Below are positions 430 to 59,050 of a stretch of 64,000 bases of DNA, piece by piece. The translations under genes and the position numbers were made by a program. The stretch is from Paludibacteraceae bacterium. Its GTDB lineage: Bacteria; Bacteroidota; Bacteroidia; Bacteroidales; Paludibacteraceae. Numbering within the stretch: the stretch's first letter is position 1; each line of letters opens with the position of its first letter. The notes beneath the pieces were generated by a model. It saw only the letters and a program-made list of their open reading frames with translations, was not told where the DNA came from and ran no database searches. The DNA lies in assembly GCA_017559385.1 (NCBI GenBank), contig JAFYSK010000052.1, positions 1 through 64,000 on the forward strand. The letters run 5' to 3'.

Positions 430-1461
430 ATGAAACGAAATATAGCCATTATAGCAGGAGGAGATAGCTCCGAATATGAGGTATCGCTGCGCAGCGCAGC
501 GGGCATAGAGTCTTTCTTAGCCGACCAAAAGCAATACACCACTACTATCGTACTTCTACGAGGAAATGAGTGGAAAGCCAAAATCAAGAGCCAAGAACCA
601 GGAGCCAAGAATCAAGATGAGTGGGTAGAGATAGATAAGAATGATTTTTCGTACACCTACAACGGAGTTAAAAACACATTTGACTTTGCCTATATTACTA
701 TACACGGTACTCCAGGCGAGAACGGCGTATTACAAGGTTACCTAGACATGATTGGTCTCCCCTACTCTTGCTGTGGCGTATTGGCAGCAGCGATGACCTT
801 CAACAAATACACCTGCAATCACTACCTGAAAGGTTTTGGCGTGAAAGTGGCGGAGAGTGTGCTATTGAGGAGTTCAGAAGTTCAGAAGTTCAGTAGTGAG
901 GAGATTGTAAAGCAAGTGGGATTGCCATGCTTTATTAAGACCAACGTAGGTGGTTCGTCGTTTGGTGTAACCAAGGTCAAGACACTAGAAGAGGTAGAAC
1001 CTGCTATTGAGAAAGCCTTCGCTGAAGGCGACGAGGTGATCTGTGAGGCATTTATGAAGGGTATTGAAATCACTTGCGGCGCATACAAGACCAAAGAGAA
1101 AGCGGTTGCCTTCCCTATTACCGAAGTAGTGACTAGCAACGAGTTCTTTGATTACGATGCCAAATACAATGGTCAGGTGGACGAGATTACCCCTGCCCGT
1201 ATCCCCGACGAAGTACGCGATGCAGTACAAGCCATGACACTGAGGATCTACGATATTCTGGGATGCAAAGGTATTATTCGTGTAGACTATATATTAACAG
1301 GCGATAAGGCGAAAGGCGAAAGGCTAGAGATAAATCTCTTAGAGGTGAATACCACACCAGGTATGACCGCGACATCCTTCATCCCACAACAAGTGCGCGC
1401 AGCGGGATTGAATATTGGCGAGGTGCTGAGTGAAATTGTGGAAGACAATTTTATAGTTTAG
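430..1461 (+). CDS. ddl: D-alanine--D-alanine ligase
   Basis: ATP-grasp ligase that joins two D-alanines for peptidoglycan precursors in the cytoplasm (343 aa). The N-terminus reads IAIIAGGDSSEYEVSLRSA, the family's phosphate-loop start. The C-terminal magnesium/ATP site is EVNTTPGMT. I chose the ATG at 430 because an upstream TTG in frame (400) lies inside the promoter. Three short repeat-derived segments interrupt the protein in frame: SQEPGAKNQD (DNA 588-617), SSEVQKFSS (870-897) and GDKAKGERLE (1299-1328, just before the active-site strand). They look like low-complexity insertions in surface loops. A prenyl synthase gene follows at once. Function is certain; the effect of the insertions is unknown. 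Confidence 0.95.
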   Translation: MKRNIAIIAGGDSSEYEVSLRSAAGIESFLADQKQYTTTIVLLRGNEWKAKIKSQEPGAKNQDEWVEIDKNDFSYTYNGVKNTFDFAYITIHGTPGENGVLQGYLDMIGLPYSCCGVLAAAMTFNKYTCNHYLKGFGVKVAESVLLRSSEVQKFSSEEIVKQVGLPCFIKTNVGGSSFGVTKVKTLEEVEPAIEKAFAEGDEVICEAFMKGIEITCGAYKTKEKAVAFPITEVVTSNEFFDYDAKYNGQVDEITPARIPDEVRDAVQAMTLRIYDILGCKGIIRVDYILTGDKAKGERLEINLLEVNTTPGMTATSFIPQQVRAAGLNIGEVLSEIVEDNFIV

Positions 1462-1486
1462 TGTTTAGAGTTTAGTGTTTAGTGAC

Positions 1487-2479
1487 ATGGACATTAATAA
1501 AGAGATACTGAATCTAGATTGGAAGCGTGAGCCATATGGCTTGTACGAGCCTATTGAATATACGCTAGCGGCGGGTGGCAAGCGCGTGCGTCCACAATTG
1601 GCGATGATTGCTAGTCAGCTATTTGGCGGCAAAGATGAAGAGGTACTGCCTGCGGCATTGGCGTTGGAGGTATTCCACAACTTCACGCTGCTGCACGACG
1701 ATGTGATGGACAAGGCTGATGTGCGTCGAGGCAGACCAACCGTGCATGTCAAGTGGAACGAGAACACCGCTATCCTATCGGGTGATCAGATGCTGATAGA
1801 GGCATATAAACTATTGTCAGGCGTACCCGCCGATAAACTGCCTAAAGTGCTGCAACTATTCAACAAGATGGCCACTGAGATCTGTGAAGGTCAGCAATAC
1901 GATGTGGACTTTGAAAGCCAAGAGCAAGTTGCTATAGAAGAATATCTCAAAATGATTCGACTAAAAACCTCGGTACTACTGGCCAATGCACTGCAAACAG
2001 GTGCCTATATAGCAGGTGCAGATGAGCGAGCACAAGAGGTGCTGTACAAGTTTGGTATCCATATTGGACTAGCCTTTCAGATACAAGATGATATTCTGGA
2101 TGTATGGGGCGACCCTAAAACATTTGGCAAAGCCGTAGGAGGCGATATCAGTTGCAACAAGAAGACTTTTGTGTATCTAGAGGCGGTAAGGCGATTAGGC
2201 GATGAGGCAATGAGGCGAAAGATTAAAGGCGATGAGGCGCGGCCAGCGACCGAAGCGAAAAGTCTGGAGAAGTGGTATAGCCAAGTATTGGAGGACAACA
2301 CGGAGAAGATTACAGCAGTAAAAGAGATATTTGAGCTATTGGATGTGCGCTCCGCATGTGAAAAGGTGGTGGAAGACTATACAAGAAAAGCACTTGCGTT
2401 GCTAGAGCAACTGCCTCAAAACGAGGCGACAGAGCAACTGCGTCAATTGGCCAATAAACTCAATACTCGAAAAGATTAA
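1487..2479 (+). CDS. Polyprenyl (isoprenyl) diphosphate synthase, first copy
   Basis: All-trans prenyl diphosphate synthase (330 aa) that adds isopentenyl units to an allylic diphosphate. The first aspartate-rich motif is LLHDDVMDKADVRRGRPTVH and the second is FQIQDDILDVWGDP. The GGKRVRP motif near the N-terminus binds diphosphate. Its size suits a farnesyl/geranylgeranyl or medium-chain enzyme; product length cannot be read safely. Start: ATG at 1487 rather than the GTG at 1475, which lies in a GTTTAGAGTTTAGTG spacer repeat. A repeat of the AGGCGATNAGGCGA type at 2181-2244 is translated in frame as RRLGDEAMRRKIKGDEAR, just after the second Asp-rich region. A second family member is at 5376. 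It probably shares a transcript with ddl. Confidence 0.88.
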   Translation: MDINKEILNLDWKREPYGLYEPIEYTLAAGGKRVRPQLAMIASQLFGGKDEEVLPAALALEVFHNFTLLHDDVMDKADVRRGRPTVHVKWNENTAILSGDQMLIEAYKLLSGVPADKLPKVLQLFNKMATEICEGQQYDVDFESQEQVAIEEYLKMIRLKTSVLLANALQTGAYIAGADERAQEVLYKFGIHIGLAFQIQDDILDVWGDPKTFGKAVGGDISCNKKTFVYLEAVRRLGDEAMRRKIKGDEARPATEAKSLEKWYSQVLEDNTEKITAVKEIFELLDVRSACEKVVEDYTRKALALLEQLPQNEATEQLRQLANKLNTRKD

Positions 2480-2528
2480 AACCCTTAAAAACTCTTATAA
2501 CTTTTAGAACACTTTAATCCCCACACAT

Positions 2529-3299
2529 ATGCCTTATCGTCGATTACCCAAAACAGACCAAGCACGCCTGCGAGCTCTGAAGCAAGCTATTCAGCATGCT
2601 GGCGAAGTAGAGTTTAAGCAACAAGCTATCAACTACCGCACCATCACAGAGGCGCAGCGATTCCTATTGCTATTCGAAAACCAAGTGGCACAATACCAGG
2701 CTAACTTCGACTCGAAGGTGTCTGATAACAAGCAGTATCGCCACAAGGTGCGTAATGCACGCATGTATATCTCGCACTTTATTCAAGTGCTGAACCTGGC
2801 AGCTATACGAGGCGAGATTAAGAAAGGGCAAAAAGAACTATACAAGCTAGATCCAAACAACCACACCTTGCCTGATCTAAGCACTGAAGAGAAGTTGCTA
2901 GAATGGGGCAAGAATATCATCGAGGGTGAACAAGCGCGTACTAGTCAAGGTGGTTTCCCAATCTACAACCCAGCCATCAACAAGGTGCAAGTGCACTACA
3001 ACATATTCCGCGAGCACTACACCACCCATAAACTACATACAAAGACGCACAATCGTTCGTATGCCAGCATCGAGGATATGCGTGCACAGGCCGATACCAT
3101 CATCCTGAGCATATGGGATCAGGTAGAAAACTTCTACAAAGATGAGCTACCATATGCCAAGCTACAGAATTGTCAGGCATATGGTATGATATACTACTAC
3201 CGAAAGGGGGAACCTAAATTGAGTCCGCAAACCGATCAACAGATACTTAGCGACCGCGCTCAACAGACGAAACTAAAATGGTTTGAGACGGAAGAATGA
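2529..3299 (+). CDS. Conserved hypothetical protein (Bacteroidales)
   Basis: 256-aa soluble, basic protein with no signal peptide or membrane segment. I do not recognise a named domain. The N-terminal half is predicted helical (RLRALKQAIQHAGEVEFKQQ and a later VRNARMYISHFIQVLNLAA). The C-terminal half has aromatic-rich stretches such as NPAINKVQVHYNIFREHY and YGMIYYYRKGEPKLSP. It follows a TTAAAACTTTTAG-type spacer. Its last 53 bases overlap the 3' end of the convergent 5-formyltetrahydrofolate cyclo-ligase gene. Clean codon structure throughout supports a real gene. Confidence 0.8.
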   Translation: MPYRRLPKTDQARLRALKQAIQHAGEVEFKQQAINYRTITEAQRFLLLFENQVAQYQANFDSKVSDNKQYRHKVRNARMYISHFIQVLNLAAIRGEIKKGQKELYKLDPNNHTLPDLSTEEKLLEWGKNIIEGEQARTSQGGFPIYNPAINKVQVHYNIFREHYTTHKLHTKTHNRSYASIEDMRAQADTIILSIWDQVENFYKDELPYAKLQNCQAYGMIYYYRKGEPKLSPQTDQQILSDRAQQTKLKWFETEE

Positions 3300-3870
3300 T
3301 ACGATGCACACGCTGATCATGGCGTGATGAAGGAACCTGCTCGATCAACTGGAAATCATAGCCCACGCCTATCAAAGTAGCGTGGGTTTGTTTTTTGATA
3401 AAGCGATCGTAATAACCGCCGCCACGACCTAGACGGCGACCCTTCTCATCAAAAGCCACAGCAGGCACAATCACTAGATCAATCTGACCGGTATAGGCAG
3501 GAGTGGTAGGCTCTGGTATGCCAAACTTGCCACGGTGCATATGCTCGTTGCCTGCATATGGGTGCACAGTCATGCCACGGCGATGGCTGACAGGGAAAAG
3601 GATGGTCTTCTCCTTCTTATAGCGCTTGACCAAAGGTAGGACATCTACCTCGTTTTGCACTGGATAATAAATCAAAATAGTTTTAGCCTCACGAAAACAC
3701 TGCATCTGCTGGAGCTGTTGAAGAATAGACTCAGACGCCTCGGCACGATCAGCGGCCGACATAATACGACGCTTCTGCACCAAGAGCTCGCGCACTTGAT
3801 TCTTCTCGCGCTGAAGCTTGTGGCTAGGTAGTAATTGGAGCAATTGCTTGATGTTACTTTCGAAAAGCAT
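3247..3870 (-). CDS. 5-formyltetrahydrofolate cyclo-ligase
   Basis: ATP-dependent enzyme (207 aa) that converts 5-formyl-THF to 5,10-methenyl-THF in folate recycling. The family signature is clear: VIVPAVAFDEKGRRLGRGGGYYDRF (residues about 145-170), preceded by IPEPT. The longer reading frame starts upstream at 3924, but the minus-strand promoter TAATTTTGC lies at 3893-3901, so the ATG at 3870 (LFESNIKQLL) is the likely start. The N-terminal 40 residues are longer than in E. coli YgfA. The stop codon lies 53 bp inside the convergent neighbour, an unusually long 3' overlap. Confidence 0.92.
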   Translation of the reverse strand: MLFESNIKQLLQLLPSHKLQREKNQVRELLVQKRRIMSAADRAEASESILQQLQQMQCFREAKTILIYYPVQNEVDVLPLVKRYKKEKTILFPVSHRRGMTVHPYAGNEHMHRGKFGIPEPTTPAYTGQIDLVIVPAVAFDEKGRRLGRGGGYYDRFIKKQTHATLIGVGYDFQLIEQVPSSRHDQRVHRIILPSQTILVSSVERGR

Positions 3871-3892
3871 AAGACTAATTTTTAATTGGACT

Positions 3893-3925
3893 GCAAAATT
3901 ACACTTTTTTTTTGATATATGCAAG
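3893..3925 (-). promoter_or_regulatory. Promoter of 5-FTHF cyclo-ligase
   Basis: On the minus strand: CTTG (3922-3925), 20 bp, TAATTTTGC (3893-3901). This decides the start at 3870. Confidence 0.75.
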
Positions 3926-3970
3926 CATATATGCTCAGATTATAATCCTGGCAAAAATATTTGCGATATA

Positions 3971-4003
3971 TTTGTGTAATCCAAAAAAAAGCAGTAACTT
4001 TGC
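3971..4003 (+). promoter_or_regulatory. Promoter of the kelch-like lipoprotein
   Basis: TTTG at 3971-3974, 20-bp spacer, TAACTTTGC at 3995-4003. The gene starts 17 bp later, at 4020. The leftward promoter at 3893-3925 lies back to back with it. Confidence 0.8.
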
Positions 4004-4019
4004 GGGAAATTTTGTTACT

Positions 4020-5375
4020 ATGCGATACTTTATATTCACACTACTCATTCTAGCAAGCATCCTTGTAGGATGCACACCGCAAAATGAGGACGAGACATCA
4101 ACGGAAAACAGAGTGCATCTTTTTACCTTTGTTAAAGACACACTCAACCCTGGTCTAACTGAAGCGACATACACGATTGAGCACCGCAGCGACACCGGAT
4201 TGATCTATTGCAAGGACTCTCTACGTTTTGGTACGCGTCTGGACAGTGTAGTGCCTTATATCACCTATAAGGCTACACCTGGTTCTGCCACTTTCTTTCT
4301 ACCTAATGATACAATCATTAGCACCGGTTCGGACACACTGGATTTTACACAGATGCCTATTTACCTGCTGGTGACAGCATCAGATATGAAGACCGAGCGA
4401 TGGTATCGCATAGATATTCACGCACACCAGGTGAACCCTGACCTATATGTATGGGAGCAACTGACAGAGGAAATTTTTCCTATGCAGCACTGCAAGACCG
4501 AGGCGATGTATGTGCAAGATCAGTTTGTGCTGTATGTAAACAACGGATTGAGCACTACAGTATATGAGTCGAAGAATGGTAGCAGTTGGAGCAAGGCTAG
4601 CGCGCCTACGGGCTTACCTACTGCATGTCAGGTAGAGGATATAGTAGCGCATAACGACACATTGTACTATATTGATATTGACAAGGAACAGTTATACCTA
4701 TCGGCTAATCATATTGACTGGACCGCCACAGATTATAGCACAGCCAGTTTCAAGCCAATCAATATGCTGATGAGCTACAATCAGCAAGTGTGGTGCATCA
4801 TTCAGGACCGTAGCAGCAATAAGTTACAACTAGCTACTATACACGAAGGGCAAATCACACCACAAAGCTATATTGCGGGTCTTAGCCAAGGCTATCTGCC
4901 AGATAAATTCCCGATTAGTGATTTTGCTGCGACGGAGTTTGAGAGCAGCAGCGAGCGTCCAAGAGCAATGATAGTGGGCGGCCGCAGCATGAATGGCGAC
5001 CCAATCAACACCAGATGGAATCTAGAGTATGTGGTGACCACTGACACCTATCGCCTGAAGGACTTTACCATATCACAACCTAGTTTCCACACCCTGACAG
5101 GTGCATCCGTGGTGCAATACGGAGGACATCTTATCATGTTTGGCGGAATAGATAATGATGTTGATTGGAATACGGACATCCTATACTCGGACGACGAAGG
5201 CATGAACTGGTATCAACCAGATACAGCTAGCAACCAGTTGCCAGCCGAGTACAAGAGCCGACAAAATCAATCGGTGCTCATCCACAATAATAGTTTGTAC
5301 CTTATAGGCGGACAATCGAACGACCAATCGTTTAGCGATGTGTATCGCGGACGACTCAATTCATTGCAATTCTAA
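4020..5375 (+). CDS. Lipoprotein with kelch-like beta-propeller
   Basis: 451-aa exported lipoprotein. Residues 1-18 form a signal peptide with lipobox LVGC. Residues about 25-140 form a beta domain ending in an YRIDIHAH strand. The rest reads as a propeller with blade motifs such as MIVGGRSMNGD, LIMFGGIDNDVDWN and LYLIGGQSNDQS (kelch-like GG pairs). The layout resembles a Bacteroidales family I remember as DUF6242, but I cannot verify that. Start: ATG at 4020 directly after the promoter; the longer frame upstream is non-coding. It abuts the next prenyl synthase with no gap, so the two are translationally coupled. The role is unknown, perhaps binding or anchoring at the outer membrane. Confidence 0.8.
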   Translation: MRYFIFTLLILASILVGCTPQNEDETSTENRVHLFTFVKDTLNPGLTEATYTIEHRSDTGLIYCKDSLRFGTRLDSVVPYITYKATPGSATFFLPNDTIISTGSDTLDFTQMPIYLLVTASDMKTERWYRIDIHAHQVNPDLYVWEQLTEEIFPMQHCKTEAMYVQDQFVLYVNNGLSTTVYESKNGSSWSKASAPTGLPTACQVEDIVAHNDTLYYIDIDKEQLYLSANHIDWTATDYSTASFKPINMLMSYNQQVWCIIQDRSSNKLQLATIHEGQITPQSYIAGLSQGYLPDKFPISDFAATEFESSSERPRAMIVGGRSMNGDPINTRWNLEYVVTTDTYRLKDFTISQPSFHTLTGASVVQYGGHLIMFGGIDNDVDWNTDILYSDDEGMNWYQPDTASNQLPAEYKSRQNQSVLIHNNSLYLIGGQSNDQSFSDVYRGRLNSLQF

Positions 5376-7822: not shown

Positions 7823-8817
7823 ATTGTAGTGATTACAGTCTGGCCGACTGCTTGTAAAGTTTGTAGGTTAATATTTTGCATATCATCTCGCTGGGTATGC
7901 CACCACGACGAGAATCCAGTGTTAGTATCTTCCTTGTAATCAATCACATCCAGGCATGGAATACCGGCAATGGTGTTGATATAATAGTGGTCATCTGTAA
8001 TAGGATAATAGGTGGTGTTTCTGACAAAGTAGCGTCCATATCCTAGTCGGGCAGCTGTTCGCCAGAGTTTCTCGACATAGCCTTGGGCATATTGCATGGA
8101 GAAGTACTCACGTGGGAAGGTCGCAAGAGGATCGCCTACCATATCCAGCAAGATGCCGTATTGGATATTGAGAGTTGAATGTTGAGAGTTGAGAGTTGAG
8201 AGTTTGTATTCTTTTGCCCATAGCTGGCTGCCTAGGCACCAAGTATCTGGACGTTCCTGGCCAGTATAGTGGGTAGGTGTACCCATATCCTCGCAGTCGA
8301 AGAAGACAACTTGCACAGTAGGTATGGCCTGTCCTTGTGCTTTTAAACTGGCCAATTGGCGCACTATTTCCAAGATGACGCCCACACCACTAGCACCATC
8401 GTTGGCACCTAGTACGGGTTGAAATCGCTGGTCATAATCCTCCTCTTCGTCGGACCAAGGACGGCAGTCCCAGTGCGCACAAAGCAGGATGGCTGGCAAG
8501 GAAGATCCCTCGATCAGGGCAGTGATATTGCGGATAGGCTGCTGCTGACCTGCATAGTTGATCATGGTACCGGTCTGCTGCTGTACTTGGGCCCCATGAC
8601 GCTGCAACTGGGCCACTAGCCAGTCGCCACATAAGCTATGCTCCAAGGTACCCGGAACACGCGGACCAAAAGCCACCTGCGCCTCAATATACGCATACGC
8701 AGAGTCCGCCGAGAAAGTTGAGAGTTGAGAGTTAGTTGTAGAAGACTGTTGCTGTTTTACGCAAGACACGCACAACAGCAACAGCACCAATATACCATAT
8801 TGAATTCCCCTAAACAC
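7810..8817 (-). CDS. M28-family zinc peptidase / glutaminyl cyclotransferase-like lipoprotein
   Basis: 335-aa exported protein. The signal peptide ends in a lipobox-like LLCVSC (residues about 14-19). The zinc site residues fit the M28/glutaminyl-peptide cyclotransferase fold: CAHWDCRP (His, Asp), [11 protein letters not shown] (Asp), FFDCEDMG (Glu) and TDDHYYIN (His near the C-terminus). Bacterial QC-like members either cyclise N-terminal Gln or cut peptides; the sequence does not decide. Two in-frame stretches come from GTTGAGA repeats: TNSQLSTFS (DNA 8716-8735) and [13 protein letters not shown] (8168-8205). It sits between prs and sufC and overlaps sufC by 13 bp. Confidence 0.85.
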
Positions 8818-8870
8818 TAAACTCTAAACACTAAACAGTAGCGGCTCTGCCGCGTTCACTAAACCCTAAA
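8818..8870. repeat. Spacer repeat CTAAACACTAAAC with a GC palindrome
   Basis: The gap between prs and the M28 gene consists of ACTCTAAACACTAAAC words interrupted by GCGGCTCTGCCGC, a small hairpin, followed by CACTAAACCCTAAA. The same words occur in reverse sense near 1462-1486. No coding signal. Confidence 0.7.
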
Positions 8871-26079: not shown

Positions 26080-26170
26080 GCGTCTATTGTGCGATTATTG
26101 TCCGTGAATTGTGCGTAAATTGTGCGTCTATTGTGCGTAAATTGTGCGTAAATTATGCGTAAATTATGCG
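26080..26170. repeat. Eight tandem 11-bp units (GCGTAAATTGT)
   Basis: Units start at 26080, 26091, 26102, 26113, 26124, 26135, 26146 and 26157, then a final GCG. Consensus GCGTAAATTGT with one to four changes per unit. The period equals about one helical turn, so every unit presents the same DNA face. It lies between the two divergent operons. Confidence 0.9.
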
Positions 26171-33459: not shown

Positions 33460-33460
33460 G

Positions 33461-33638: not shown

Positions 33639-36470
33639 ATGAAAAAGATTATCACACTTACCATTGGATTGCTTTGCGCTAGCATAATTTTGTTAGCTCG
33701 TACTCCACAAGAGGCGGCGCTGATTGCTAGCCAGTTTATCACCCAATCAAACGCCACTCCTACATTGCGTTTGCAGAAAGCTGCGGCTGCTACCAACGTG
33801 ACCGCACCCGTGGAATTGGCTTTTACACAATACCAAATAGACCAGACTACACCTGCGATATTCGTATTCAACAGCACTGACCAGGGATTTGTACTCGTCA
33901 GTGCAGAAGACAACGCTCGCGCCGTACTAGGTTACTCCGACGAAGGCACATTCGACGCGAACAACATCCCAGAGAACATGCAGTTCTGGCTACAGATGTA
34001 TGCAGATGAATTGAGGCGATTAGGCGATAGAGCACCCCAAAAATCAGCAGATTTTTCGGGGACCCCGCTGGCGAAAGGTAAGGTGAATAGGCGAGAGGTT
34101 AAAGGCAAAAGGTTAGAGGCAGAAGCTGAGAGTTATCCAACCATCAGCCCTATCTTGGGTGAGACCGTATGGGGACAAGGTGAGCCATTTAACAACAAGT
34201 GCCCACAAATAGGCAACCAACGCACCGTGACCGGTTGCGTGGCGACAGCAATGAGCCAAATCATGTATGCACACAAATACCCTACCAAAGGTACGGGCAG
34301 TCATTCATACACCACGGAAACCAAGAAACTGAAAGTAAATGCTGACTTTGGCAATACCACCTACGATTGGGCAAACATGATACCCGACTACAACAAGTCA
34401 TACACCTCTACCCAAGCTGATGCCGTGGCTACACTGATGTTTCACGCAGGCGTAGCAGCAGATATGGATTACACCGTGGACGGTAGCGGAGCCGTATCAT
34501 CCATCGCCTTGGCAGCCATGACCGAGTACTTTGGATATAACAAAGCGATCAATGTTCTGCCAAAAGACTTTATGAAAGAGGAGCAAATCCTACAAGCCAT
34601 TGCTTCCGATCTACAAGCAGGTCGTCCACTGTTTATCGGCGGTGCGACTGTCAAACAAGAAGGACACGCCTTTGTGTGCGATGGCATGAAGAGCGATGGA
34701 TATCTACATATCAACTGGGGTTGGTATGGCATGGCTGATGGATATTTTGCGCTATCCGCCCTAGCGCCTGAGATGCAAGGAACAGGAGGCAGCTCAAGCA
34801 ACCTAGCGTTTACCGAAAGAGTATGCATCTATTCCAATATTATACCTAGTGCAGGTGGCGAGGCAATGCCATTGGTGACCATTGATAAATTGACTCGCAC
34901 ATCCAGTGATGCCATTAGCAAAACAACAGCAGTTGATTTTAGTTTGGATGTATTCAGTAGTACAGGTATTGCTACCGCAGCAGGTACAGTGACCTACTTC
35001 ATCTACAATAACGAAGGAGAAGTAGTAGATAAAGTAGGAATAGGTACTTTCGAATTAGATCCTGGTTATTACTACACCAATGCTATCACTTTAACAGGAT
35101 ACCTGCCTAGCAGTTTGGCACAAGGTAACTACGAGTTGGAAATTCGCTATATCGATGACAACGGGAAAGATCACCCTATCCTAGTCAAAGGGCTAGGCGA
35201 GGTACGCGTGCCATTTACCGTGACAAGCAGCCAGTTTGTGTTCGGCGAGACACCTGAAGCAGAAAAAGAAATGCGCCCATTCACCAATGCTGATTTCAGT
35301 TTGGTACAAGGCAGCAAGACATGGTCGGTGGATCTGTTCTCCAGTCAATTTTGGGCAGACGCTCCATCCGAGACCGATGTGCTCATCCGCTGTAACATTC
35401 ACAGCAATAGCGACAAGTCGGTGATAGGAACTTACACCATGGAGGCAGGTACTATTGACGCCAACGCCATGTATGCCGAGGGCTACTACAACGCTTGTTA
35501 TCAATACCAACCTACCGCCTTGCATCTGACTATCCTACCTGCAGAAGGAGAAAAAGTGACTGTACAATTCTACATGGAGGTCAATGGCGAAGTGATGCAA
35601 GGTGCATACACCACCACACCTGATTGGTACTCCACCGATGGTAGCCAGTACTATTACAACACGGATTACACATTTGACCTAGCTACTACCCTCTCTGCAT
35701 CCAAGGCACTACAAATAACAAAAGCATTGAGCCATACAAGTTTGACGGAGATGAGCTACTTCGTAAATGGAACCATCTCCACCATGCGCAATACGCCTGA
35801 GCAAATTGTGCAATACAAGAGTGCACGCTTTGATATCTCGGACGATGGAACCACCGACAACCAGTTCTACTGTTACAATACCCGCTGGCTTGACAATAGC
35901 GACTTTGTTACGGGTAACGAAATAGGTGTAGGCGACAAAGTGGTAGTATTAGGACAACTACAAAACTACAATGGTAACACACCAGAAATCAAAGGATATG
36001 TGTATCAGCACATAGCAGCCGAGCAACCTGAGGTGGATTACTCCATCAAAAACCTACAGGTAACCACCAACCAAGATACCGTATTCTTTAACTTCGAAAG
36101 TGAAGCATCTTATTTCCATGTCAAGATACTAAAGGAAGATGGTTCGAAAGCTGCAGAAGGTATTATTGACTTCAAGAATGTGTATATCATCTTGGAAGAT
36201 GGCACCTACACCCTATGGATTAGACCAGTAGATGAAGCACAAGAGTATTATATAGGCGATGCAGTAGAAGTGCAATTTGAAATCAATACTACAACTACAG
36301 GTATTGAGGATTTGAACACGCAACAAACTGTCGTTCTCTACGATTTGATGGGTCACGTGGTGGATCAAAAGATGTCAGGCGATAATCGTCCTTTTGATGT
36401 ACCCGCTACTGGTATATATATCCAACATACAAATAAGCAGACAACCAAGATTTATATCAACAAACGATAA
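33639..36470 (+). CDS. C10-family cysteine protease (streptopain/interpain type), secreted
   Basis: 943-aa secreted protease. Signal peptide about 1-20; Spi-type propeptide about 21-125 (FVFNSTDQGFVLVSAEDNARAV). The catalytic domain is about 165-400 with Cys200 (VTGCVATAMSQIM), His343 (EGHAFVCDG) and the INWGWYGMADGYF motif. The C-terminal beta domains end in a type A-like T9SS tail (VVLYDLMGHVV, GIYIQ). An unusual segment at residues about 125-164 (DNA 34012-34130) comes from the AGGCGATTAGGCGATAG repeat family plus a CCCCAAAAATC palindrome. It lies exactly at the propeptide/mature junction, where activation cleavage would occur. The stop overlaps the DUF1599 start (TAATG). Confidence 0.9.
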   Translation: MKKIITLTIGLLCASIILLARTPQEAALIASQFITQSNATPTLRLQKAAAATNVTAPVELAFTQYQIDQTTPAIFVFNSTDQGFVLVSAEDNARAVLGYSDEGTFDANNIPENMQFWLQMYADELRRLGDRAPQKSADFSGTPLAKGKVNRREVKGKRLEAEAESYPTISPILGETVWGQGEPFNNKCPQIGNQRTVTGCVATAMSQIMYAHKYPTKGTGSHSYTTETKKLKVNADFGNTTYDWANMIPDYNKSYTSTQADAVATLMFHAGVAADMDYTVDGSGAVSSIALAAMTEYFGYNKAINVLPKDFMKEEQILQAIASDLQAGRPLFIGGATVKQEGHAFVCDGMKSDGYLHINWGWYGMADGYFALSALAPEMQGTGGSSSNLAFTERVCIYSNIIPSAGGEAMPLVTIDKLTRTSSDAISKTTAVDFSLDVFSSTGIATAAGTVTYFIYNNEGEVVDKVGIGTFELDPGYYYTNAITLTGYLPSSLAQGNYELEIRYIDDNGKDHPILVKGLGEVRVPFTVTSSQFVFGETPEAEKEMRPFTNADFSLVQGSKTWSVDLFSSQFWADAPSETDVLIRCNIHSNSDKSVIGTYTMEAGTIDANAMYAEGYYNACYQYQPTALHLTILPAEGEKVTVQFYMEVNGEVMQGAYTTTPDWYSTDGSQYYYNTDYTFDLATTLSASKALQITKALSHTSLTEMSYFVNGTISTMRNTPEQIVQYKSARFDISDDGTTDNQFYCYNTRWLDNSDFVTGNEIGVGDKVVVLGQLQNYNGNTPEIKGYVYQHIAAEQPEVDYSIKNLQVTTNQDTVFFNFESEASYFHVKILKEDGSKAAEGIIDFKNVYIILEDGTYTLWIRPVDEAQEYYIGDAVEVQFEINTTTTGIEDLNTQQTVVLYDLMGHVVDQKMSGDNRPFDVPATGIYIQHTNKQTTKIYINKR

Positions 36471-40191: not shown

Positions 40192-40235
40192 ACCCTAGAT
40201 TAACTAGTACGACTAGTATAACTAGAACGACTAAA
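40192..40235. repeat. ACTAG decamer spacer repeat between pyrH and frr
   Basis: TTAACTAGTACGACTAGTATAACTAGAACGACTA: ACTAG at steps of about 10 bp. Confidence 0.8.
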
Positions 40236-42125: not shown

Positions 42126-43115
42126 ATGAAAGGACTAGTAATCAAATCAACCGGCACGAGTTACGGCGTGCACTTTGAAGATGGCACCACGGCAGACTGC
42201 CATGTTAAAGGCAATTTCCGTATCCGTGGTATTCGATCGACCAATCCAGTGGCTATCGGTGATTATGTAGAAGTCACTACCAATGAGGATGGCACCCACT
42301 GGATAACCGAACTATACGACCGCAAGAACTACATCATTCGTCGCGCCACCAACCTTAGTTATGCCTCGCACATATTGGCAGCCAATGTCGATATGGCTGC
42401 ACTGATTGTAACCATCAACCATCCTAAGACCTCAACTACTTTTATTGATCGTTTCCTAGCCACATGCGAAGCCTACCGTGTGCCTGCATGTTTGATTTTC
42501 AACAAGATTGACCTTCTTAACGAGGAAGAGCTACAAGAGTTAGCCTCTCTTCGTCAACTATATGAATCACTAGGCTACCCCACCTATGCCATATCGGCAT
42601 TGGATCTAGCCTCAACGCCTGATCGCCCAATTGTCTCATCACCGCTATATAGCATCTTTCACGACCGAGTTACCCTACTATCCGGCAATTCAGGCGTAGG
42701 CAAGTCCACCCTACTGAATGCCATTTTCGGCAAAGATATTGCTCGTACTGGCGCTATCTCGTCGGCACACCACAAAGGTATGCACACTACCACTTTCTCC
42801 GAAATGTATCCGCTGGGCGACATTGAAACACTTGACACTCTTAAAACTCCTTCGACTCCAGGAGTACGCTCCTGGATTATTGACACTCCTGGTATCAAGG
42901 GCTTTGGACTATTGGATCTAGAAAAAGAGGAAGTGGGACATTATTTCCGAGATATCTTCCACGTCAGTCGCGACTGCCGCTACTCCAACTGCCTACACAC
43001 AGGCGAACCAGGTTGTGCAGTCTATCAGGCAGTGGCCAAGGGCGAAATTGCACTATCACGATATGAGAGTTACCTGAGTATCCTAGACGACACCCAAGAA
43101 AACAAATATCGCTAG
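42126..43115 (+). CDS. rsgA: Ribosome small-subunit-dependent GTPase A
   Basis: 329-aa circularly permuted GTPase that matures the 30S subunit. OB domain about 1-80; G4 FNKIDLL (about 121-127), G1 LLSGNSGVGKSTLLNAI, G3 DTPGIKGFG. The C-terminal zinc finger has Cys/His in C..YSNCLHTGEPGC. Between G1 and G3 an extra segment (about residues 234-252, IETLDTLKTPSTPGVRSW) is encoded by a repeat-like stretch with the palindrome CCAGGAG-TACG-CTCCTGG (42858-42875). Standard RsgA lacks this segment. An ACTAG spacer follows. Confidence 0.95.
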   Translation: MKGLVIKSTGTSYGVHFEDGTTADCHVKGNFRIRGIRSTNPVAIGDYVEVTTNEDGTHWITELYDRKNYIIRRATNLSYASHILAANVDMAALIVTINHPKTSTTFIDRFLATCEAYRVPACLIFNKIDLLNEEELQELASLRQLYESLGYPTYAISALDLASTPDRPIVSSPLYSIFHDRVTLLSGNSGVGKSTLLNAIFGKDIARTGAISSAHHKGMHTTTFSEMYPLGDIETLDTLKTPSTPGVRSWIIDTPGIKGFGLLDLEKEEVGHYFRDIFHVSRDCRYSNCLHTGEPGCAVYQAVAKGEIALSRYESYLSILDDTQENKYR

Positions 43116-43152
43116 TATCACTAGTTGCACTAGCATAACTAGAATAACTAGT
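43114..43152. repeat. ACTAG decamer spacer repeat after rsgA
   Basis: ATCACTAGTTGCACTAGCATAACTAGAATAACTAGTAA: five ACTAG words at 8-10 bp steps. Confidence 0.8.
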
Positions 43153-43202
43153 AATTTTGCATTTTTTTCATCACACTGACAAGTTTTAGCAGTTTGACGC
43201 AG

Positions 43203-44476: not shown

Positions 44477-46003
44477 TTGAAGCAACAGACACTCATATTA
44501 ACCCCTGAGAAAGCACACGACATGGAGCAACAGTTCCGTGTCGTGAAGCGTTCTGTTGATGCACGCCAGAGGCAGTTAAAGGTCAACCTAACCCTTTTGA
44601 CAAACGACAATGGCCAGTTCATAGAAAAAGATGCACCTATCCCACTCTATGAAGCACCCATATTCCACGATGTACACCATGCCCAGCATAGCGTAAACAT
44701 TATTGGAGCGGGGCCCGCAGGACTGTTTGCAGCACTAACCCTCATAGAGAATGGAATCAAACCCATCATCTACGAACGCGGCAAACAGGTGGCCGAGCGC
44801 AAAAAGGATATTGCCATACTCAACCGCAACCAAGGACTCAACACCGAGTCCAACTACTGCTTTGGCGAAGGCGGAGCAGGTACCTTCTCCGATGGCAAAC
44901 TGTACTCACGCAGCAAGAAACGCGGCAATATGCAACGCGTGATGGAGCTATTCCATCATTTTGGTGCCAAAGATAATATCCTATACGAGGCACATGCACA
45001 TATCGGTAGCGACAAACTACCTAATATCATCCGTTCCATGCGCGAGTGCATCATTGAACATGGCGGCGAAATTCACTTCTCCACATGTGTGGATGAATCT
45101 CTTTTCCAAAGCCTTATCGCCTCATCACCTCATCGCCCTACAATATTAGCGATTGGCCACTCGGCACACGATACCTATCAGATGTTGATGAATGAGGGTG
45201 TACAACTAGAAGACAAAGGTTGTGCGATGGGGGTTCGAGCTGAGCATCCACAAGCATTGATCAACCGCCTGATGTACCACGACCCATCGCCAGAACTGGT
45301 CCAACTACTAGGCAACGCATCTTACTCATTGGTGACACAGGTGCAAGGTCGTGGCGTATACTCCTTCTGCATGTGCCCAGGCGGACATATTGTGCCTGCC
45401 GGTAGTGCACTTAACAGCTGCGTGGTCAATGGCATGTCTGCCAGCCACCGCAACTCGCCTTTTGCCAACTCGGGCATGGTAGTCGAGATTCGTCCAGAGG
45501 ACCTTGCTGGTCTAGTTCTGGAGTTTAGAAGTTTAGGAGTTCAGGAGTTTAAGCTTCAAGGTCTTACTTTTCAACAGTATTTAGAGCACTTAGCATATAA
45601 ACATGGCGGTGCACCCTCTTTAGCTCCAGCACAACGACTGAAAGACTTTGTAGATGGACGACATAGCCAGACATTGCCTGCTTGTAGCTACCTGCCTGGC
45701 ATGGTTTCTAGCCGTTTGGACGAGTGGTTGCCCGCACATATCGGCAAGCGCTTGCAGCAGGGCTTCAGGGATTTCGACCGTAAATACCGTGGTTTTTTGA
45801 CCAACGATGCTGTTATCCTAGGCGTAGAAAGCCGATCTAGTAGCGCCGTACGTATCCCACGCGATCCAGACACATTACAGTCAGTCTCTACCCCAGATCT
45901 TTACCCATGTGGTGAAGGTGCTGGTTATGCCGGCGGCATCACATCCTGCGCCTTGGACGGCATCAATGTAGCCCTAGCCATCGCTCATACCTTTAACCTA
46001 TAA
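44477..46003 (+). CDS. FAD-dependent oxidoreductase (COG2509 type)
   Basis: 508-aa flavoprotein. A short N-terminal domain carries RVVKRSVDARQRQLKVNL, then the FAD-binding Rossmann motif VNIIGAGPAGLFAALTLIE (about 73-90). The family box NYCFGEGGAGTFSDGKLYSR and the C-terminal PCGEGAGYAGGITSCALDG follow. Substrate unknown. The start is TTG at 44477, two bases after the recA stop; the next ATG (44522) would remove residues conserved in the family. An AGTTTAGGAGTTCAGG repeat (45519-45562) is translated in frame as LEFRSLGVQEFKLQG. It is cotranscribed with recA, followed by tcdA. Confidence 0.88.
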   Translation: MKQQTLILTPEKAHDMEQQFRVVKRSVDARQRQLKVNLTLLTNDNGQFIEKDAPIPLYEAPIFHDVHHAQHSVNIIGAGPAGLFAALTLIENGIKPIIYERGKQVAERKKDIAILNRNQGLNTESNYCFGEGGAGTFSDGKLYSRSKKRGNMQRVMELFHHFGAKDNILYEAHAHIGSDKLPNIIRSMRECIIEHGGEIHFSTCVDESLFQSLIASSPHRPTILAIGHSAHDTYQMLMNEGVQLEDKGCAMGVRAEHPQALINRLMYHDPSPELVQLLGNASYSLVTQVQGRGVYSFCMCPGGHIVPAGSALNSCVVNGMSASHRNSPFANSGMVVEIRPEDLAGLVLEFRSLGVQEFKLQGLTFQQYLEHLAYKHGGAPSLAPAQRLKDFVDGRHSQTLPACSYLPGMVSSRLDEWLPAHIGKRLQQGFRDFDRKYRGFLTNDAVILGVESRSSSAVRIPRDPDTLQSVSTPDLYPCGEGAGYAGGITSCALDGINVALAIAHTFNL

Positions 46004-53572: not shown

Positions 53573-53726
53573 CGCCGAAAACAATAAATTTTCATAGTTA
53601 AGGTTTAGGTTTAATGGCAACGAGAGGCTGGGAAGTTTCTCGTTGTTTCTTGAACTAACTACAATAAAATGCATACTAACTCCATCCTGCAAGGGATGGT
53701 TAAATTATATATAAGCAGATACATAC

Positions 53727-53762
53727 TAGATCAACTAGTACAACTAGATCCAACTAGAACTA
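53727..53762. repeat. ACTAG spacer repeat in the leader
   Basis: ATACTAGATCAACTAGTACAACTAGATCCAACTAGAACTAA: four ACTAG words at 9-10 bp steps directly upstream of the small ORF. Confidence 0.78.
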
Positions 53763-54796: not shown

Positions 54797-54846
54797 GCAT
54801 AAAGCACGCTTTTTAACCCACAAAAATGCACATACCAGTCAAAAAA

Positions 54847-54879
54847 CTTGCGTATGTGCTTTTTTTATTGTAACTTTGC
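54847..54879 (+). promoter_or_regulatory. Promoter of waaA
   Basis: CTTG (54847-54850), 20 bp, TAACTTTGC (54871-54879). Confidence 0.75.
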
Positions 54880-54930
54880 ACCTTGATTTATTCGTATTAG
54901 CAGCAATCGTCTTACCGAACATATCAACCA

Positions 54931-56133
54931 ATGAATATATACTTTTGGATATTACGCCTAGCAGCACTCTTTGGCCATCGCAAGGCCAAACAGCTCGTTC
55001 AAGGTCAGAAGCATGCCCTTCATGATGCCTTGCAATGGGCACATTCGTTATGCGGCTCACGCATATTGTGGATACACGCAGCCTCAGTAGGCGAGTTTGA
55101 GCAAGTGCGCCCCATTATCGAGCGCTTGCGCCAAGAGCATTCCCAACGTAAGATTCTGCTTACCTTCTTCTCTCCTTCCGGATACGAAGCACGCAAGAAC
55201 TATCCAATGGTGGACAAGGTGCTATACTTGCCATTTGCTACACTGCGCAATGCCAAGAAATGGGTCAGCACCCTTCCTCTGGAGATGGCTATCTTCGTCA
55301 AATACGAATTCTGGCCTTCGTATCTCAAGCAACTCAAGAAGCACAATATCCCTACCTACTTGATTTCGGCGATCTTCCGCCCTAATCAGTTATTCTTTAA
55401 GCCATGGGGCATCGGATATCGCCGCTTACTGCACTGCTTCACACATATTTTTGTTCAGGATTTAGATTCGCAGCAGTTGCTGTGCAAACATAGTGTCTTC
55501 ACCTCTTCCGTAGCGGGCGACACACGCTTTGACCGCGTCACCCAGATCCAGCGCCAAGCGCAGGAATTGCCTGTAGTCGAAGGATTCACCATGGGAGCCG
55601 ACAAGGTGCTGATAGCGGGTAGCACATGGCCTCACGACGAGCAATACCTCGCGCGCTACCTTGCCGAGCACAACGATCTAAAACTGGTACTTGTACCCCA
55701 TGAGATTGATGCGGATCACCTGCACCAGATATTCCAGCTCTTTGAAGGACGATATACACGCTACACCGAGGCTACACCACTTAATATTGACAAATGTCGT
55801 GTACTTTTAGTCGATACCATCGGTGTTTTGGCATCCATCTACCGCTACGGCAATGTGGCTTACATAGGCGGTGGATTCGGAGTTAGCATCCACAACACCC
55901 TTGAGGCTGCAGTCTATGGCATACCCGTGGTCTTTGGCCCTAAGTGGCAGAAGTTCCGCGAAGCACGTGGCCTGCTACAGGCTCAGGCGGCCTTGTCTGT
56001 CCGCAACTACAAAGAGTTTGCCCGAGCGTTAGACACAGCCTTTGCCACCCAACAGATCATGGGCGAACGCGCAACCCACTATGTACAAAGCGAGTGCGGT
56101 GCTACCGACATCATTTACAAAAAAATATTTTAG
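54931..56133 (+). CDS. waaA: 3-deoxy-D-manno-octulosonic acid (Kdo) transferase
   Basis: 400-aa GT30 enzyme adding Kdo to lipid A precursor at the inner membrane. N-terminal hydrophobic anchor (IYFWILRLAALFG). Motifs WIHAASVGEFEQVRPII (catalytic Glu), KYEFWPSYLKQ, GSTWPHDEQYL, and YIGGGFGVSIHNTLEAAVYG in the CMP-Kdo domain. Canonical length. Confidence 0.95.
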   Translation: MNIYFWILRLAALFGHRKAKQLVQGQKHALHDALQWAHSLCGSRILWIHAASVGEFEQVRPIIERLRQEHSQRKILLTFFSPSGYEARKNYPMVDKVLYLPFATLRNAKKWVSTLPLEMAIFVKYEFWPSYLKQLKKHNIPTYLISAIFRPNQLFFKPWGIGYRRLLHCFTHIFVQDLDSQQLLCKHSVFTSSVAGDTRFDRVTQIQRQAQELPVVEGFTMGADKVLIAGSTWPHDEQYLARYLAEHNDLKLVLVPHEIDADHLHQIFQLFEGRYTRYTEATPLNIDKCRVLLVDTIGVLASIYRYGNVAYIGGGFGVSIHNTLEAAVYGIPVVFGPKWQKFREARGLLQAQAALSVRNYKEFARALDTAFATQQIMGERATHYVQSECGATDIIYKKIF

Positions 56134-56190
56134 TATAATACTCTTAAAACTTCTAGAACAGCAGCTCTGCTGCGCTTAAAACTTTTAGAA
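56133..56190. repeat. TTAAAACTTCTAGAAC spacer repeat with palindrome before hisS
   Basis: CTCTTAAAACTTCTAGAAC, then GCAGCTCTGCTGC (small palindrome at about 56162-56174), then CTTAAAACTTTTAGAAC. It has the same design as 8818-8870: an AT repeat interrupted by a GC hairpin. Confidence 0.75.
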
Positions 56191-56204
56191 CTCTATAATT
56201 TATT

Positions 56205-57593
56205 ATGGCACAAAAACCTAGCATTCCAAAAGGGACACGCGACTTTTCTCCACTTGAGATGGCTCGTCGTAATTATATCTTTGATACCATCAAGGCGGTC
56301 TTCGCTTTGTACGGTTTCCAGCAGATCGAGACTCCAGCCATGGAGAATCTCTCCACCCTCATGGGCAAGTACGGCGAAGAGGGCGACAAACTGCTTTTCA
56401 AGATTCTCAACTCGGGCGACTGGAAATCTGCCATCAGTCACGAAGCGCTAGATACAGCCACTATTGGTGCACTAACCACCAAGGTTAGCGAAAAGGGACT
56501 TCGCTACGATCTTACCGTACCTTTTGCTCGTTTCGTAGTACAACATCGCGACGAGATTCAGTTCCCATTCAAGCGCTTCCAGATTCAACCTGTATGGCGT
56601 GCAGACCGTCCACAGAAGGGCCGCTACCGCGAATTTTATCAGTGCGATGTTGACGTAGTTGGCACCAACTCCTTACTCAGCGAGGTCGAACTCATCCAGA
56701 TACTAGCCGAGGTGTACCGCCGCTTAGGTATCCGCGTATGCTTACATATCAACAACCGTAAGATTCTTGCAGGAATCGCCGAAGTCATCGGTCAACCTGA
56801 GCGAATTATTGACATCACCGTAGCCATCGACAAACTCGATAAAATCGGCATTGATAATGTCAACAAGGAGCTTCTAGACAAGGGTCTCCCTACCGAGGCC
56901 GTCGAGGCACTCCAACCTATCCTCCACCTCAATGGCACCAACAGCGAGAAGCTTGACCAACTCGCCCAAGTGCTAGCCACCTCCGAAACGGGTCTCAAAG
57001 GTATTGAGGAACTCCGCACCATCTTTGCCCTTTATGCACATAGTACACAGGATGGTGACCTGAGCACCTACGAACCTGCTCCATTGCAAATCGAGTTAGA
57101 TCTCTGCCTTGCGCGCGGTCTCAACTACTATACAGGCGCTATCTTCGAGGTGAAAGCCTTAGATGCACAAATCGGTAGCATCACGGGTGGTGGTCGCTAC
57201 GACAACCTTACTGGTATCTTTGGCATGCCTGGCGTATCGGGCGTAGGTATCTCGTTTGGTGCCGATCGTATATACGATGTCCTTTGCGAGCTCAACCTCT
57301 ACCCCGACAACCTTCAGTCCACCACTCAGTTGCTCTTTGCCACCTTCGGTCATGACGAATTGCTCTATGCCACTCGCTGGGCGGGTGCATTACGCAGCCA
57401 AGGATACAGCGTTGAGGTATATCCAGAACCTACCAAGATGAAGAAGCAAATGGGCTATGCCGATGCCAAGCGCATTCCATTCGTAGCCATCGTAGGTACC
57501 GATGAAATGGGGGCAAACAAGGTGATGCTCAAAAACATGACCACTGGCGAGCAACAACTAGTCACCCTAGATGAACTAGTACAACTAGTATAA
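56205..57593 (+). CDS. hisS: Histidine--tRNA ligase
   Basis: 462-aa class II synthetase. Motif 1 region [12 protein letters not shown], motif 2 [21 protein letters not shown], His-A motif [13 protein letters not shown], motif 3 [24 protein letters not shown], and the C-terminal anticodon-binding domain. Length fits Bacteroidales HisRS. Confidence 0.97.
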
Positions 57594-57618
57594 CTAGCCC
57601 TACTAGCATAACTAGCAT
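57573..57618. repeat. ACTAG spacer repeat running out of hisS
   Basis: GAACTAGTACAACTAGTATAACTAGCCCTACTAGCATAACTAGC: the repeat starts inside hisS, coding its last residues ELVQLV, and continues beyond the stop codon. Confidence 0.8.
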
Positions 57619-57619
57619 A

Positions 57620-57650
57620 AAAAAAAGAGAGCTACATGCTCTCTTTTTTT
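57620..57650. terminator. Bidirectional terminator overlapping the ispG stop codon
   Basis: AAAAAAAGAGAGC, loop TACAT, GCTCTCTTTTTTT form a stem of at least 12 bp between convergent hisS and ispG. The ispG codons for KKESM and its TAG stop lie inside the hairpin. Confidence 0.9.
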
Positions 57651-59050
57651 ATCAACTCTAGCAACTGCTCTACAGCCTCTTCTTGCGGAATATTCTTCAG
57701 CACGCATTCTTTGCCCTTGTATAGGCTCACTTTGCCACGGCCTGCACCTACATAGCCATAGTCAGCATCCGCCATCTCGCCAGGACCATTCACTATACAC
57801 CCCATGATTCCTATCTTCAGCCCCTGCAGGTGGGCTGTAGCTGCCTTCACCTCTGCAATAGTTTGCTCTAGATCAAACAAGGTACGACCACAACCGGGAC
57901 AAGAGATATACTCCGTTTTATACATGCGCACGCGCGCGGCTTGCAGGATATCCTTGCTCAGACGTGTCAAGTCCTCAGTAGTAAAATGTACATTGCTCAG
58001 TACCAGTTCGGTGCAATTATGATCCCATAATAGTCGTCCGCACTCAGCCGCAGCATGCAACTGGTAGCTTGCCCAGTCTGTATCATCGTTGCTATAATAC
58101 ACAGTATGGGCTTCCACCTTCACTTGGGTACTCTTTGCATAGCGTATGCTATGTTGCTCATCCGCAAAATAGTCCACTAGCGCACGGGCCACAGGCAACT
58201 CTTTTTCTGGTGCTTCGCTCAGACTAACTCGTATAGTATCGCCGATTCCATCGGCCAAAAGTGCTCCTATTCCTACGGCTGACTTCACGCGTCCATCCTC
58301 TCCTTCGCCAGCTTCTGTCACTCCTAAATGCAGTGGAAAAGCCATCTGCTCCTCCGCCATCTGCCACACTAGCAGGCGCACTGTCGTCACCATCACGCGT
58401 GTATTGCTGGCTTTTATTGATAGCACGATGTCCTTAAAATCTTCTGCCACGGCTACGCGCAAAAACTCCATACAGCTCTCTACCATTCCTTCGGGTGTAT
58501 CACCATAGCGCGACATGATACGATCACTCAAGCTGCCATGGTTCACACCTATACGCAGGGCTGTTTTGTGCTCCTTGCAGATATTAAGCAGTTGAACAAA
58601 TCGATTACGAAGGCGCTCGAGTTCGGATTGATACTCCTCATCGGTATAATCAATCTGCTTAAACTTGCGAGCTGGGTCAATATAGTTACCAGGATTGATA
58701 CGCACTTTCTCTACCACCTTGGCGGCTGCATCTGCCACATCGGACTGAAAATGTACATCGGCAACCAATGGCACTACTTTGAACAATGTTGAACCATCTT
58801 GAACAATCTTGAACAATTCGCCACGTATCTGCGCGAATGACTCCACCTCACGCATACCCTGTGTCGTGTAGCGTAGCAGTTCAGCACCTGCTTGTATACA
58901 GCGCTCAGCCTGAGCCACACTACCTTCGATGTCGTTCGTTGAGGTGTTGGCCATAGTTTGAATTCGAACAGGGTGTTCACTTCCTATTTCCAGATCGCCC
59001 ACCTTAGTGGTAGTCGTATGACGACGATGATATGTCAGTTGTATGTCCAT
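57632..59050 (-). CDS. ispG: 4-hydroxy-3-methylbut-2-enyl diphosphate synthase
   Basis: 472-aa Fe4S4 enzyme, the penultimate step of the MEP isoprenoid route, feeding the two prenyl synthases in this window. TIM-barrel start RRHTTTTKVGDLEIGSEHPV and MANTSTNDIEG; Fe-S cysteines in EYISCPGCGR and IMGCIVNGPGE. E. coli IspG has 372 aa, while Bacteroidetes/plant types are commonly about 600 with an extra domain; this one has an intermediate insert of about 100 aa. A perfect four-unit 10-bp repeat (58779-58818) is translated as ELFKIVQDGSTLFKVV, just before LVADVHF. Start at 59050, not 59071, since the promoter lies directly upstream. Confidence 0.95.
   Translation of the reverse strand: MDIQLTYHRRHTTTTKVGDLEIGSEHPVRIQTMANTSTNDIEGSVAQAERCIQAGAELLRYTTQGMREVESFAQIRGELFKIVQDGSTLFKVVPLVADVHFQSDVADAAAKVVEKVRINPGNYIDPARKFKQIDYTDEEYQSELERLRNRFVQLLNICKEHKTALRIGVNHGSLSDRIMSRYGDTPEGMVESCMEFLRVAVAEDFKDIVLSIKASNTRVMVTTVRLLVWQMAEEQMAFPLHLGVTEAGEGEDGRVKSAVGIGALLADGIGDTIRVSLSEAPEKELPVARALVDYFADEQHSIRYAKSTQVKVEAHTVYYSNDDTDWASYQLHAAAECGRLLWDHNCTELVLSNVHFTTEDLTRLSKDILQAARVRMYKTEYISCPGCGRTLFDLEQTIAEVKAATAHLQGLKIGIMGCIVNGPGEMADADYGYVGAGRGKVSLYKGKECVLKNIPQEEAVEQLLELIKKESM

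Follow-up and report, generated by a model that had tools for sequence, protein, structure and literature searches.

Word-and-hairpin repeats inside conserved genes of a Paludibacteraceae genome and their differing content among sister species

How short tandem repeats come to lie in frame inside conserved genes is the question raised by a 64,000-nucleotide stretch of Paludibacteraceae DNA (hereafter the window; bases 1-64000 of the 64,776-bp contig G000:C63), in which genes such as ddl, rsgA and ispG contain runs of short words of the kinds found in the spacers. The original prediction had ascribed these runs to a mobile or slippage-driven process. The runs themselves proved real, and more widespread than first described. 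The reading that we favour, and hold to be rather likely, is that tiny modules of words plus hairpins are frequently dispersed through the genome and filtered by selection, while tolerant loops are repeatedly overwritten. The assembly G000 (2,005,729 bp, 70 contigs, 84.92% complete) and its near relatives are of the metagenome-assembled genome (MAG) type, and the closest named matches of the window's ddl are Paludibacteraceae MAGs from the gut of cattle, sheep, buffalo and deer.

Arrays were detected with Tandem Repeats Finder (TRF) at a minimum score of 40, and their numbers depend on this threshold. The search covered an own-genome sample of 1.16 Mb of non-N sequence (58% of G000; 8,228 bases are N), in which genes were represented, without a gene-finder, by non-overlapping open reading frames (ORFs) of at least 100 residues. 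The sample contains 450 arrays, of which 243 are intergenic, 75 lie at ORF edges and 132 are ORF-interior under a 45-base edge margin. Sixty-two interior arrays, in 55 ORFs, have non-triplet periods (up to 16, not multiples of three, period 11 being excluded by choice), for which repetition at the protein level is no explanation, and all of them sit between 10% and 90% of ORF length, as counted under the edge rule. Periods 7 and 8 are the commonest among them (17 and 18 of 62), and period 7 accounts for 25 of the 243 intergenic arrays. A Markov-2 shuffle of the sample gave 29 arrays and three further shuffles gave 26, 26 and 12; the latter three held 13, 13 and 7 non-triplet arrays and none of period 7 or 8, compared with 450 arrays in the real sequence. 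A few of the 62 are close to chance level, such as a two-copy array in a PrmA-like ORF. For periods 7, 8, 14 and 16, the copies within an array match slightly less well in genes than in spacers (86.5% vs 89.9%, p 0.013) and the arrays are slightly longer in genes (34.1 vs 32.3 bases, p 0.003), differences to which we give no weight.

The genes affected are largely conserved ones. When 49 of the 55 array-bearing ORFs were scanned against protein families (NCBIfam at E 1e-10, Pfam at E 1e-5, some matches falling under the curated cut-off), 44 matched a known family, including, above curated cut-offs, UvrA, IspH, LigA, ArgS, NadE, RibF, PriA, BirA, PurD, NadA, PhoB, RsmH, MurG, MtaB, two ABC-F proteins, a type II dehydroquinase, Ddl and IspG; a MutY match was slightly under its cut-off, and the LigA array adds only about 4 residues. 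The density of interior non-triplet arrays is 61.7 per Mb of coding sequence in G000 and 61.4 (5 arrays in 81 kb) in the ddl neighbourhoods, minus ddl itself, of eight near sisters (G061-G068, the genomes to which loci L021-L028 belong). It is 38.3 (11 in 287 kb) in the corresponding loci of other Paludibacteraceae-type MAGs (L029-L060), 10.1 in Bacteroidaceae and 12.0 in other Bacteroidales (2 arrays each), and no such array was found in 48 kb of Paludibacter coding sequence.

The arrays draw on a vocabulary that is common genome-wide, and the claim that gene repeats are of the same kinds as those elsewhere was borne out. For 56 of the 62 interior arrays, some other place in the sample repeats 16 bases of the array with one mismatch or none, compared with 19 of 62 for reversed stretches (910 vs 151 places), and several of the 19 reversed matches are near-symmetric words such as TTGAGAG. 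With blastn, 52 of the 62 match elsewhere; for 36 of these 52, both ends of the best match fall no more than 5 bases from the edges of the array. The word AGGCGATGAGGCGAT has 26 copies in G000 and is present in 12 of 61 genus genomes, six of them (including G000) with at least 4 copies; across the order it was found in 4 of 198 genomes, G000 included, the other three having one copy each. The genus sample includes duplicates that are not independent (G014 = G066, G025 = G065, G054 = G068, G058 = G064 and G160 = G067). The word CTCTCAACTCTCAAC, present in 9 of the 198 genomes, has 36 copies in G000 and 17 in G267, from another family; its backward control is also high (31 in G000) because the word is nearly symmetric. 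At the single G267 locus read (L282), CTCTCAACTCTCAAC is intergenic. In four genomes that belong to other families of the order, one locus per genome was read for CTCTCAA arrays, and there these too are intergenic.

Beyond single words, whole composites are found in unrelated genes. In the C10 protease gene (34014..34130, + strand; TRF 34080-34125, period 14), AGGCGAT words, a CACCCC hairpin at 34032-34067 and AGGCGA/AGGTTA words occur together. A 60-bp module of this gene (words, hairpin, word) has a counterpart, 95% identical, in a DEAD helicase gene of G000, and two other genomes have it at loci that differ by 2 and by 7 mismatches; in G061 the hairpin is present and most of the array after it is absent. 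The uvrA gene has 80 bp in common with priA (84%), 53 bp with a mutY-like gene (89%; a TGTGCGC..GCGCACA hairpin, then AGGCGA words), and, with both nadE and a gene for a RecQ-type helicase, a CCTACCCCC hairpin of 40 bp (92-95%). A paralogue filter reduced the ORF-ORF pairs from 33 to 12, of which eight involve words or hairpins of these kinds and another an 11-mer array, the last three being apparent coding or promoter similarity.

A hairpin module of the form GCACCCC-stem-CGGGGACCCCG, 33-44 bp between its fixed ends, occurs in 21 of 151 genus genomes (backward control, 0). Across 21 distinct 37-mers, chosen by hand from these occurrences, 95.2% of cells pair, two-sided changes number 39 against 11.6 in shuffles, and the covariation score is 0.440 against 0.125 in shuffles and at most 0.065 in slid versions. 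The hairpin was located at 27 places with distinct flanks, 19 in an ORF (11 sense and 8 antisense, some of these ORFs being short) and 8 intergenic. Among the 61 genomes, G014, G025, G039, G054 and G058 have several hairpins together with an abundant AGGCGAT word, and G047 has eight hairpins with the AGGCGAT word absent. At position 1501 of L272 (G038), a CACCCC hairpin also lies in frame (MNKDVIAPQKSADLSGTPVIIACDFA) in the N-terminal part of an ORF of 246 residues, which may encode orotidine-phosphate decarboxylase. At L265, L274 and L007:3172-3212 a larger CCCTCCCT..AGGGAAGGG stem encloses the CACCCC hairpin as its loop; the simple form of this stem occurs in uvrA, as if hairpins might insert into hairpins. 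Searched against Rfam at gathering thresholds, the whole window gave tRNA only, so that the hairpin module there reaches no listed family.

The window offers a close view of individual sites. Of ten places named within conserved genes, TRF arrays were found at eight, with periods of 7, 8, 10 and 14 in place of the predicted range of 8-14. The ddl gene, on the + strand, has three. Site 1 (576..617; period 14, that is 7+7) consists of AGCCAAG/AACCAAG heptamers that are common to G061; the array is absent in G062, G063, G065 and G068, and other extra sequence is present in G064, G066 and G067. Site 2 (868..905; TRF 871-897, period 8) consists of AGTTCAGA octamers, and between alignable flanks the sisters have ATATCCA or ATACCCA (G061, G063), GAGGCGAT (G062), GATATCGG (G065), AGGCGAA plus AGGTTAGA (G066, G067) or less regular sequence (G064, G068). 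Site 3 (1299..1328; TRF 1299-1324, period 7) consists of AGGCGAA heptamers, an array common to G061 and G062 and absent in G065, G066 and G068. Bacteroides and Paludibacter Ddl do not have the ddl repeats. Site 3 has 6 residues beyond solved Ddl chains, while site 2 aligns with them ungapped, with no gain in length, and at site 1 the solved chains are longer, so that the residues are not extra; not every array is therefore an insertion.

The remaining sites vary in a similar manner. An array spanning the end of ddl and the start of the prenyl synthase gene (1450..1482, + strand, TRF) has GTTTAGA/GTTTAGT words, with other words in G061. The prenyl synthase insert (2180..2244, + strand; TRF 2180-2218, period 8; GAGGCGAT/AGGCGAA words), about 12 residues beyond 6kd7, and the M28 peptidase array (8168..8205, - strand; TRF 8168-8204, period 7; TTGAGAG words, CTCTCAA on the coding strand) are found in the window and absent in G061; in L102 the M28 place is occupied by a CTGTCAA variant. 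Two of the named places are weaker: the N-terminal M28 stretch (8716..8735, - strand) has only two CTCTCAA copies and, by sister alignment, unchanged length, and the rsgA insert (42826..42878, + strand), made of degenerate ACACTCTTAAAACTCC words and a hairpin CCAGGAGTACGCTCCTGG at 42858-42875, gives no TRF array above 40. In support of the latter, the rsgA stretch runs about 15 residues beyond the solved RsgA chain 1u0l, and extra sequence is present there in 7 of 8 sisters, with clear repeats in 5. The array of the FAD-dependent protein (45512..45562, + strand; TRF 45520-45551, period 8) has GGAGTTTA/GGAGTTCA octamers; extra sequence is present in 6 of 8 sisters, with the window's words in G061 and G064, others in G062, G063, G066 and G068, and none in G065 and G067. 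The ispG array (58779..58818, - strand; TRF 58779-58817, period 10; 10-mer GATTGTTCAA on the coding strand) extends about 12 residues beyond solved IspG, and all eight sisters have extra sequence there, namely 8-mers, 10-mers, AGGCGAT in reverse or a string of mini-hairpins, while ispG of the outgroup G076 (outgroups, G073-G076) is short. The prediction that such residues are absent from the families thus stood for rsgA, ispG and ddl site 3 against solved chains, and not for ddl sites 1 and 2. Judging from alignments to solved chains and from the general nature of these folds, the array residues probably lie in surface loops. The proteins presumably work.

Content accordingly differs, or is lacking, site by site among G061-G068. 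Even between the window and G061, only part of the content agrees: in ddl, the words are the same at sites 1 and 3 and different at site 2, and they are the same in the FAD gene and different in ispG. The uvrA site, alignable in 6 of 8 sisters (G065 is in pieces and G067 gave only a paralogue), has a 10-mer composite in G000 and G061, a CACCCC hairpin without its 3' end in G068, a CGCCTCT array in G066, a CTACAC array in G062, a CCAATAGC array in G063 and a short unrepeated stretch in G064; the outgroups G076 and G073 are short there. Residues 585-617 of UvrA have a 64% peptide match to ORFs of 397-398 residues (G061:C19:6369-6467 and G062:C19:127976-128074), which suggests that the uvrA composite module may be present in another gene.

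In the spacers, an array at 8810..8862 (strand not assigned, TRF) has CTAAACA/CTAAACT words with a hairpin GCGGCTCTGCCGC inside it at 8841-8853, and this hairpin is present in other word arrays too (4 copies in the own-genome sample). Several further repeat families were observed. Among intergenic arrays, period 11 is the most frequent (70 of 243; for example ATTGTGCGTAA repeated 7.7 times at 26086-26170) and forms a family apart from the 7-, 8- and 10-mers. The spacers at 40203-40233, 43107-43153, 53720-53757 and 57574-57620 have 9-bp CTAG-containing words (AACTAGCAT, ACTAGTACG and similar), whose copy number differs from that in G061. The 14-mer AGCAGTACCTTTGC of the own-genome sample is a frequent TACCTTTGCA-type motif, which is presumably a Bacteroidetes promoter element, and the dispersed words CGCTGAATCTTAAC and AAATCTTATAAATC have 14 and 18 copies.

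Which words are present in genes appears to be related in part to stop codons. Words of the ATAGGTT/ATAGGCT type, which are closed in all six frames, were found in spacers only (12 of 12), while 44 of 65 AGGCGA words are in genes, and so are 10 of 21 GTTCAGGA words, 9 of these 10 lying on the coding strand in the stop-free orientation. In coding-strand AGGCGANN words, the final TG/TA is present in 0 of 8 units where a stop would result, compared with 25 of 32 in other phases, a result with some circularity, since an ORF by its definition has no stops. For the same reason the pattern of words and strands follows in part, and the statement that the repeats always preserve the frame, which holds, does so partly by construction, since the ORFs were found as open frames.

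Under the dispersal that we favour, modules of about 20-80 bp, made of tandem 7-10-bp words and/or mini-hairpins, would be copied from place to place at a high rate and would arrive in genes as well as in spacers. Copies that break the frame, carry a stop or disturb the fold would be lost, and those in tolerant loops would persist, their resident words expanding, contracting and mutating until whole modules are replaced. Since a protein has few tolerant loops, the same loop would be refilled repeatedly, and sister species would end with different content at one place. The copying might be done by host break repair or template switching with words or hairpins as primers, which is a guess. Modules common to unrelated genes point to dispersal and differing content at orthologous sites points to overwriting, so that change by insertion and replacement, in roughly this order of steps, seems to us more plausible than interspecies recombination as its main course.

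Several results weigh against this explanation. Chance alone predicts 7-13 non-triplet arrays per sample, and 6 of the 62 arrays have no match elsewhere. Shared 7-mers, compared at four sites among insert-bearing species, amount to 0.087 within a species across genes, 0.069 when one site is compared across species and 0.044 otherwise; words across genes of one species are thus only modestly alike (0.087 vs 0.044, 104 of 5000 permutations), and the likeness at one site between species means that inheritance plays a part. The stop filter is no full explanation, because all 30 TTAAAACTTTT words lie in spacers even though each strand leaves two of the three frames open, and because 4 of the 10 TTGAGAG words in genes have the stop-prone orientation. 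Further pair types in the hairpin number 9, below the 11.0 of shuffles. As to a carrier, neither Y1_Tnp (PF01797) nor RVT_1 (PF00078) has a match in the 84.92% complete G000, insertion sequence elements not having been searched.

Local slippage, by which tolerant loops copy a native stretch of 7-10 bp and resemble one another through codon or base-composition bias, would fit the dominance of periods 7 and 8, as polymerase slippage in simple repeats predicts, heptamers being described as the commonest in most genomes (PMC4679880); the native Gly-Asp residues at ddl site 3 also resemble the resident word. The same words at many unrelated loci speak against it, and since hairpin composites are common to unrelated genes and sisters have different word families between alignable flanks at one site, slippage alone is disfavoured and in our view quite unlikely. 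Of the two processes that had been proposed, the mobile or dispersal one may be the better candidate. Old words could instead be carried along when related species swap pieces of genes, as the G063 and G066 inserts at the FAD site (words plus hairpin) would suggest, which are near-identical while the two have no ispG insert in common, and as would the hairpin-plus-words stretch of uvrA common to G000 and G066 and different in G061. Exchange leaves the modules in unrelated genes of one genome unexplained, and as a sole account it seems unlikely; in view of the G063/G066 pattern, it probably adds to dispersal.

The likeness of the words might also have been kept by selection, if they are binding sites or their peptides useful linkers. 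The genome-wide common vocabulary and the preserved hairpin pairing would agree with this, and a regulatory role has been suggested for TAACTGA repeats beside start codons (PMC4679880). Content that differs between sisters or is absent (in 2 of 8 at the FAD site and 1 of 8 at rsgA) fits tolerance better than need, so that a selected function is distinctly improbable. That the repeats are collapsed or chimeric products of metagenome assembly would have to be considered for genomes of the MAG type, but in MAGs that were assembled independently and come from different host animals, inserts occupy corresponding sites and the frames are open, and we regard an artefact as most improbable.

Earlier accounts precede parts of these observations, and the original suggestion that such a process would be new was too strong. 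The short tandemly repeated repetitive (STRR) sequences of cyanobacteria have mostly 7-bp units at many loci, with hairpins and no known function (PMC2670836), and tandem 7-bp units at many loci are likewise seen here (17 of 62 interior and 25 of 243 intergenic arrays). STRR sequences are described as lying mainly in spacers; here 243 of 450 arrays are intergenic, 62 non-triplet arrays are in the interiors of ORFs, dozens of them conserved protein genes, and words of 7, 8 and 10 bp occur with nested hairpins. STRR heptamers have reportedly been found within the RNase P RNA gene of filamentous cyanobacteria. Rickettsia palindromic elements (RPE) are short palindromes in frame within unrelated metabolic genes (PMC10969869), as is the palindromic module here (19 of 27 hairpin places in an ORF, 11 sense). 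They are single elements of about 150 bp, and the present system has several families of tandem words, hairpins of 36-40 bp or smaller, modules of 33-44 bp, composites of at most 80 bp and content that differs among sisters at one site; the two are set apart by description only. In the P6b loop of the Nostoc trnL intron, the entire set of repeats has changed over several times among lineages (PMC4476775), much as in single loops here; that case concerns one RNA locus with two repeat classes, and the present one many protein genes.

TAACTGA repeats of Beggiatoaceae, cyanobacteria and five Bacteroidetes form genome-wide heptamer arrays with few cases in ORFs (PMC4679880); they consist of a single word, found for the most part ahead of start codons, and their in-ORF cases are mostly at protein ends. 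The own-genome sample has no TAACTGA doublets and 118 single copies on both strands. Yeast mitochondrial GC clusters, palindromic and about 42 nt long, are able to spread, to merge and to be shuffled (PMC4478555); they are mitochondrial and do not have tandem word arrays among the features described in the available text. Palindromic amphipathic repeat coding elements (PARCEL) show apparent shuffling within a genome (PMC2996958) and encode a 25-residue domain in ORFs of unassigned function. Repetitive extragenic palindromes with their tyrosine transposases (REP/RAYT) and retroelements, including diversity-generating retroelements (DGR), are set apart by the PF01797 and PF00078 results in the assembly at its stated completeness. 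Within the limited full-text reach of our literature search on short tandem and palindromic repeats, no invasion of the interior of many conserved bacterial protein genes by several families of words plus hairpins, with content differing between sister species, was found. In our assessment the new element is the entry of several repeat families into the interiors of core genes, together with their turnover among sisters.

A bolder form of the dispersal reading, which we put forward tentatively and think more doubtful than probable, is that a novel system pastes modules of less than 100 bp anywhere in the genome, at such a rate that many tolerant loops in core proteins are filled, and overwritten about as fast as species form, an in-frame natural insertion scanning by neither a known transposon, nor a retroelement, nor simple slippage. 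Because modules can be traced from gene to gene and from species to species, how the words spread becomes testable. If dispersal with overwriting is the right reading, these genomes would record, for dozens of core proteins, the places where insertions are tolerated and the content that is permitted there, giving a natural insertion-scanning data set that spans species, and heptamer-type repeats, best known in spacers, would be a fast supply of peptide loops for core enzymes.

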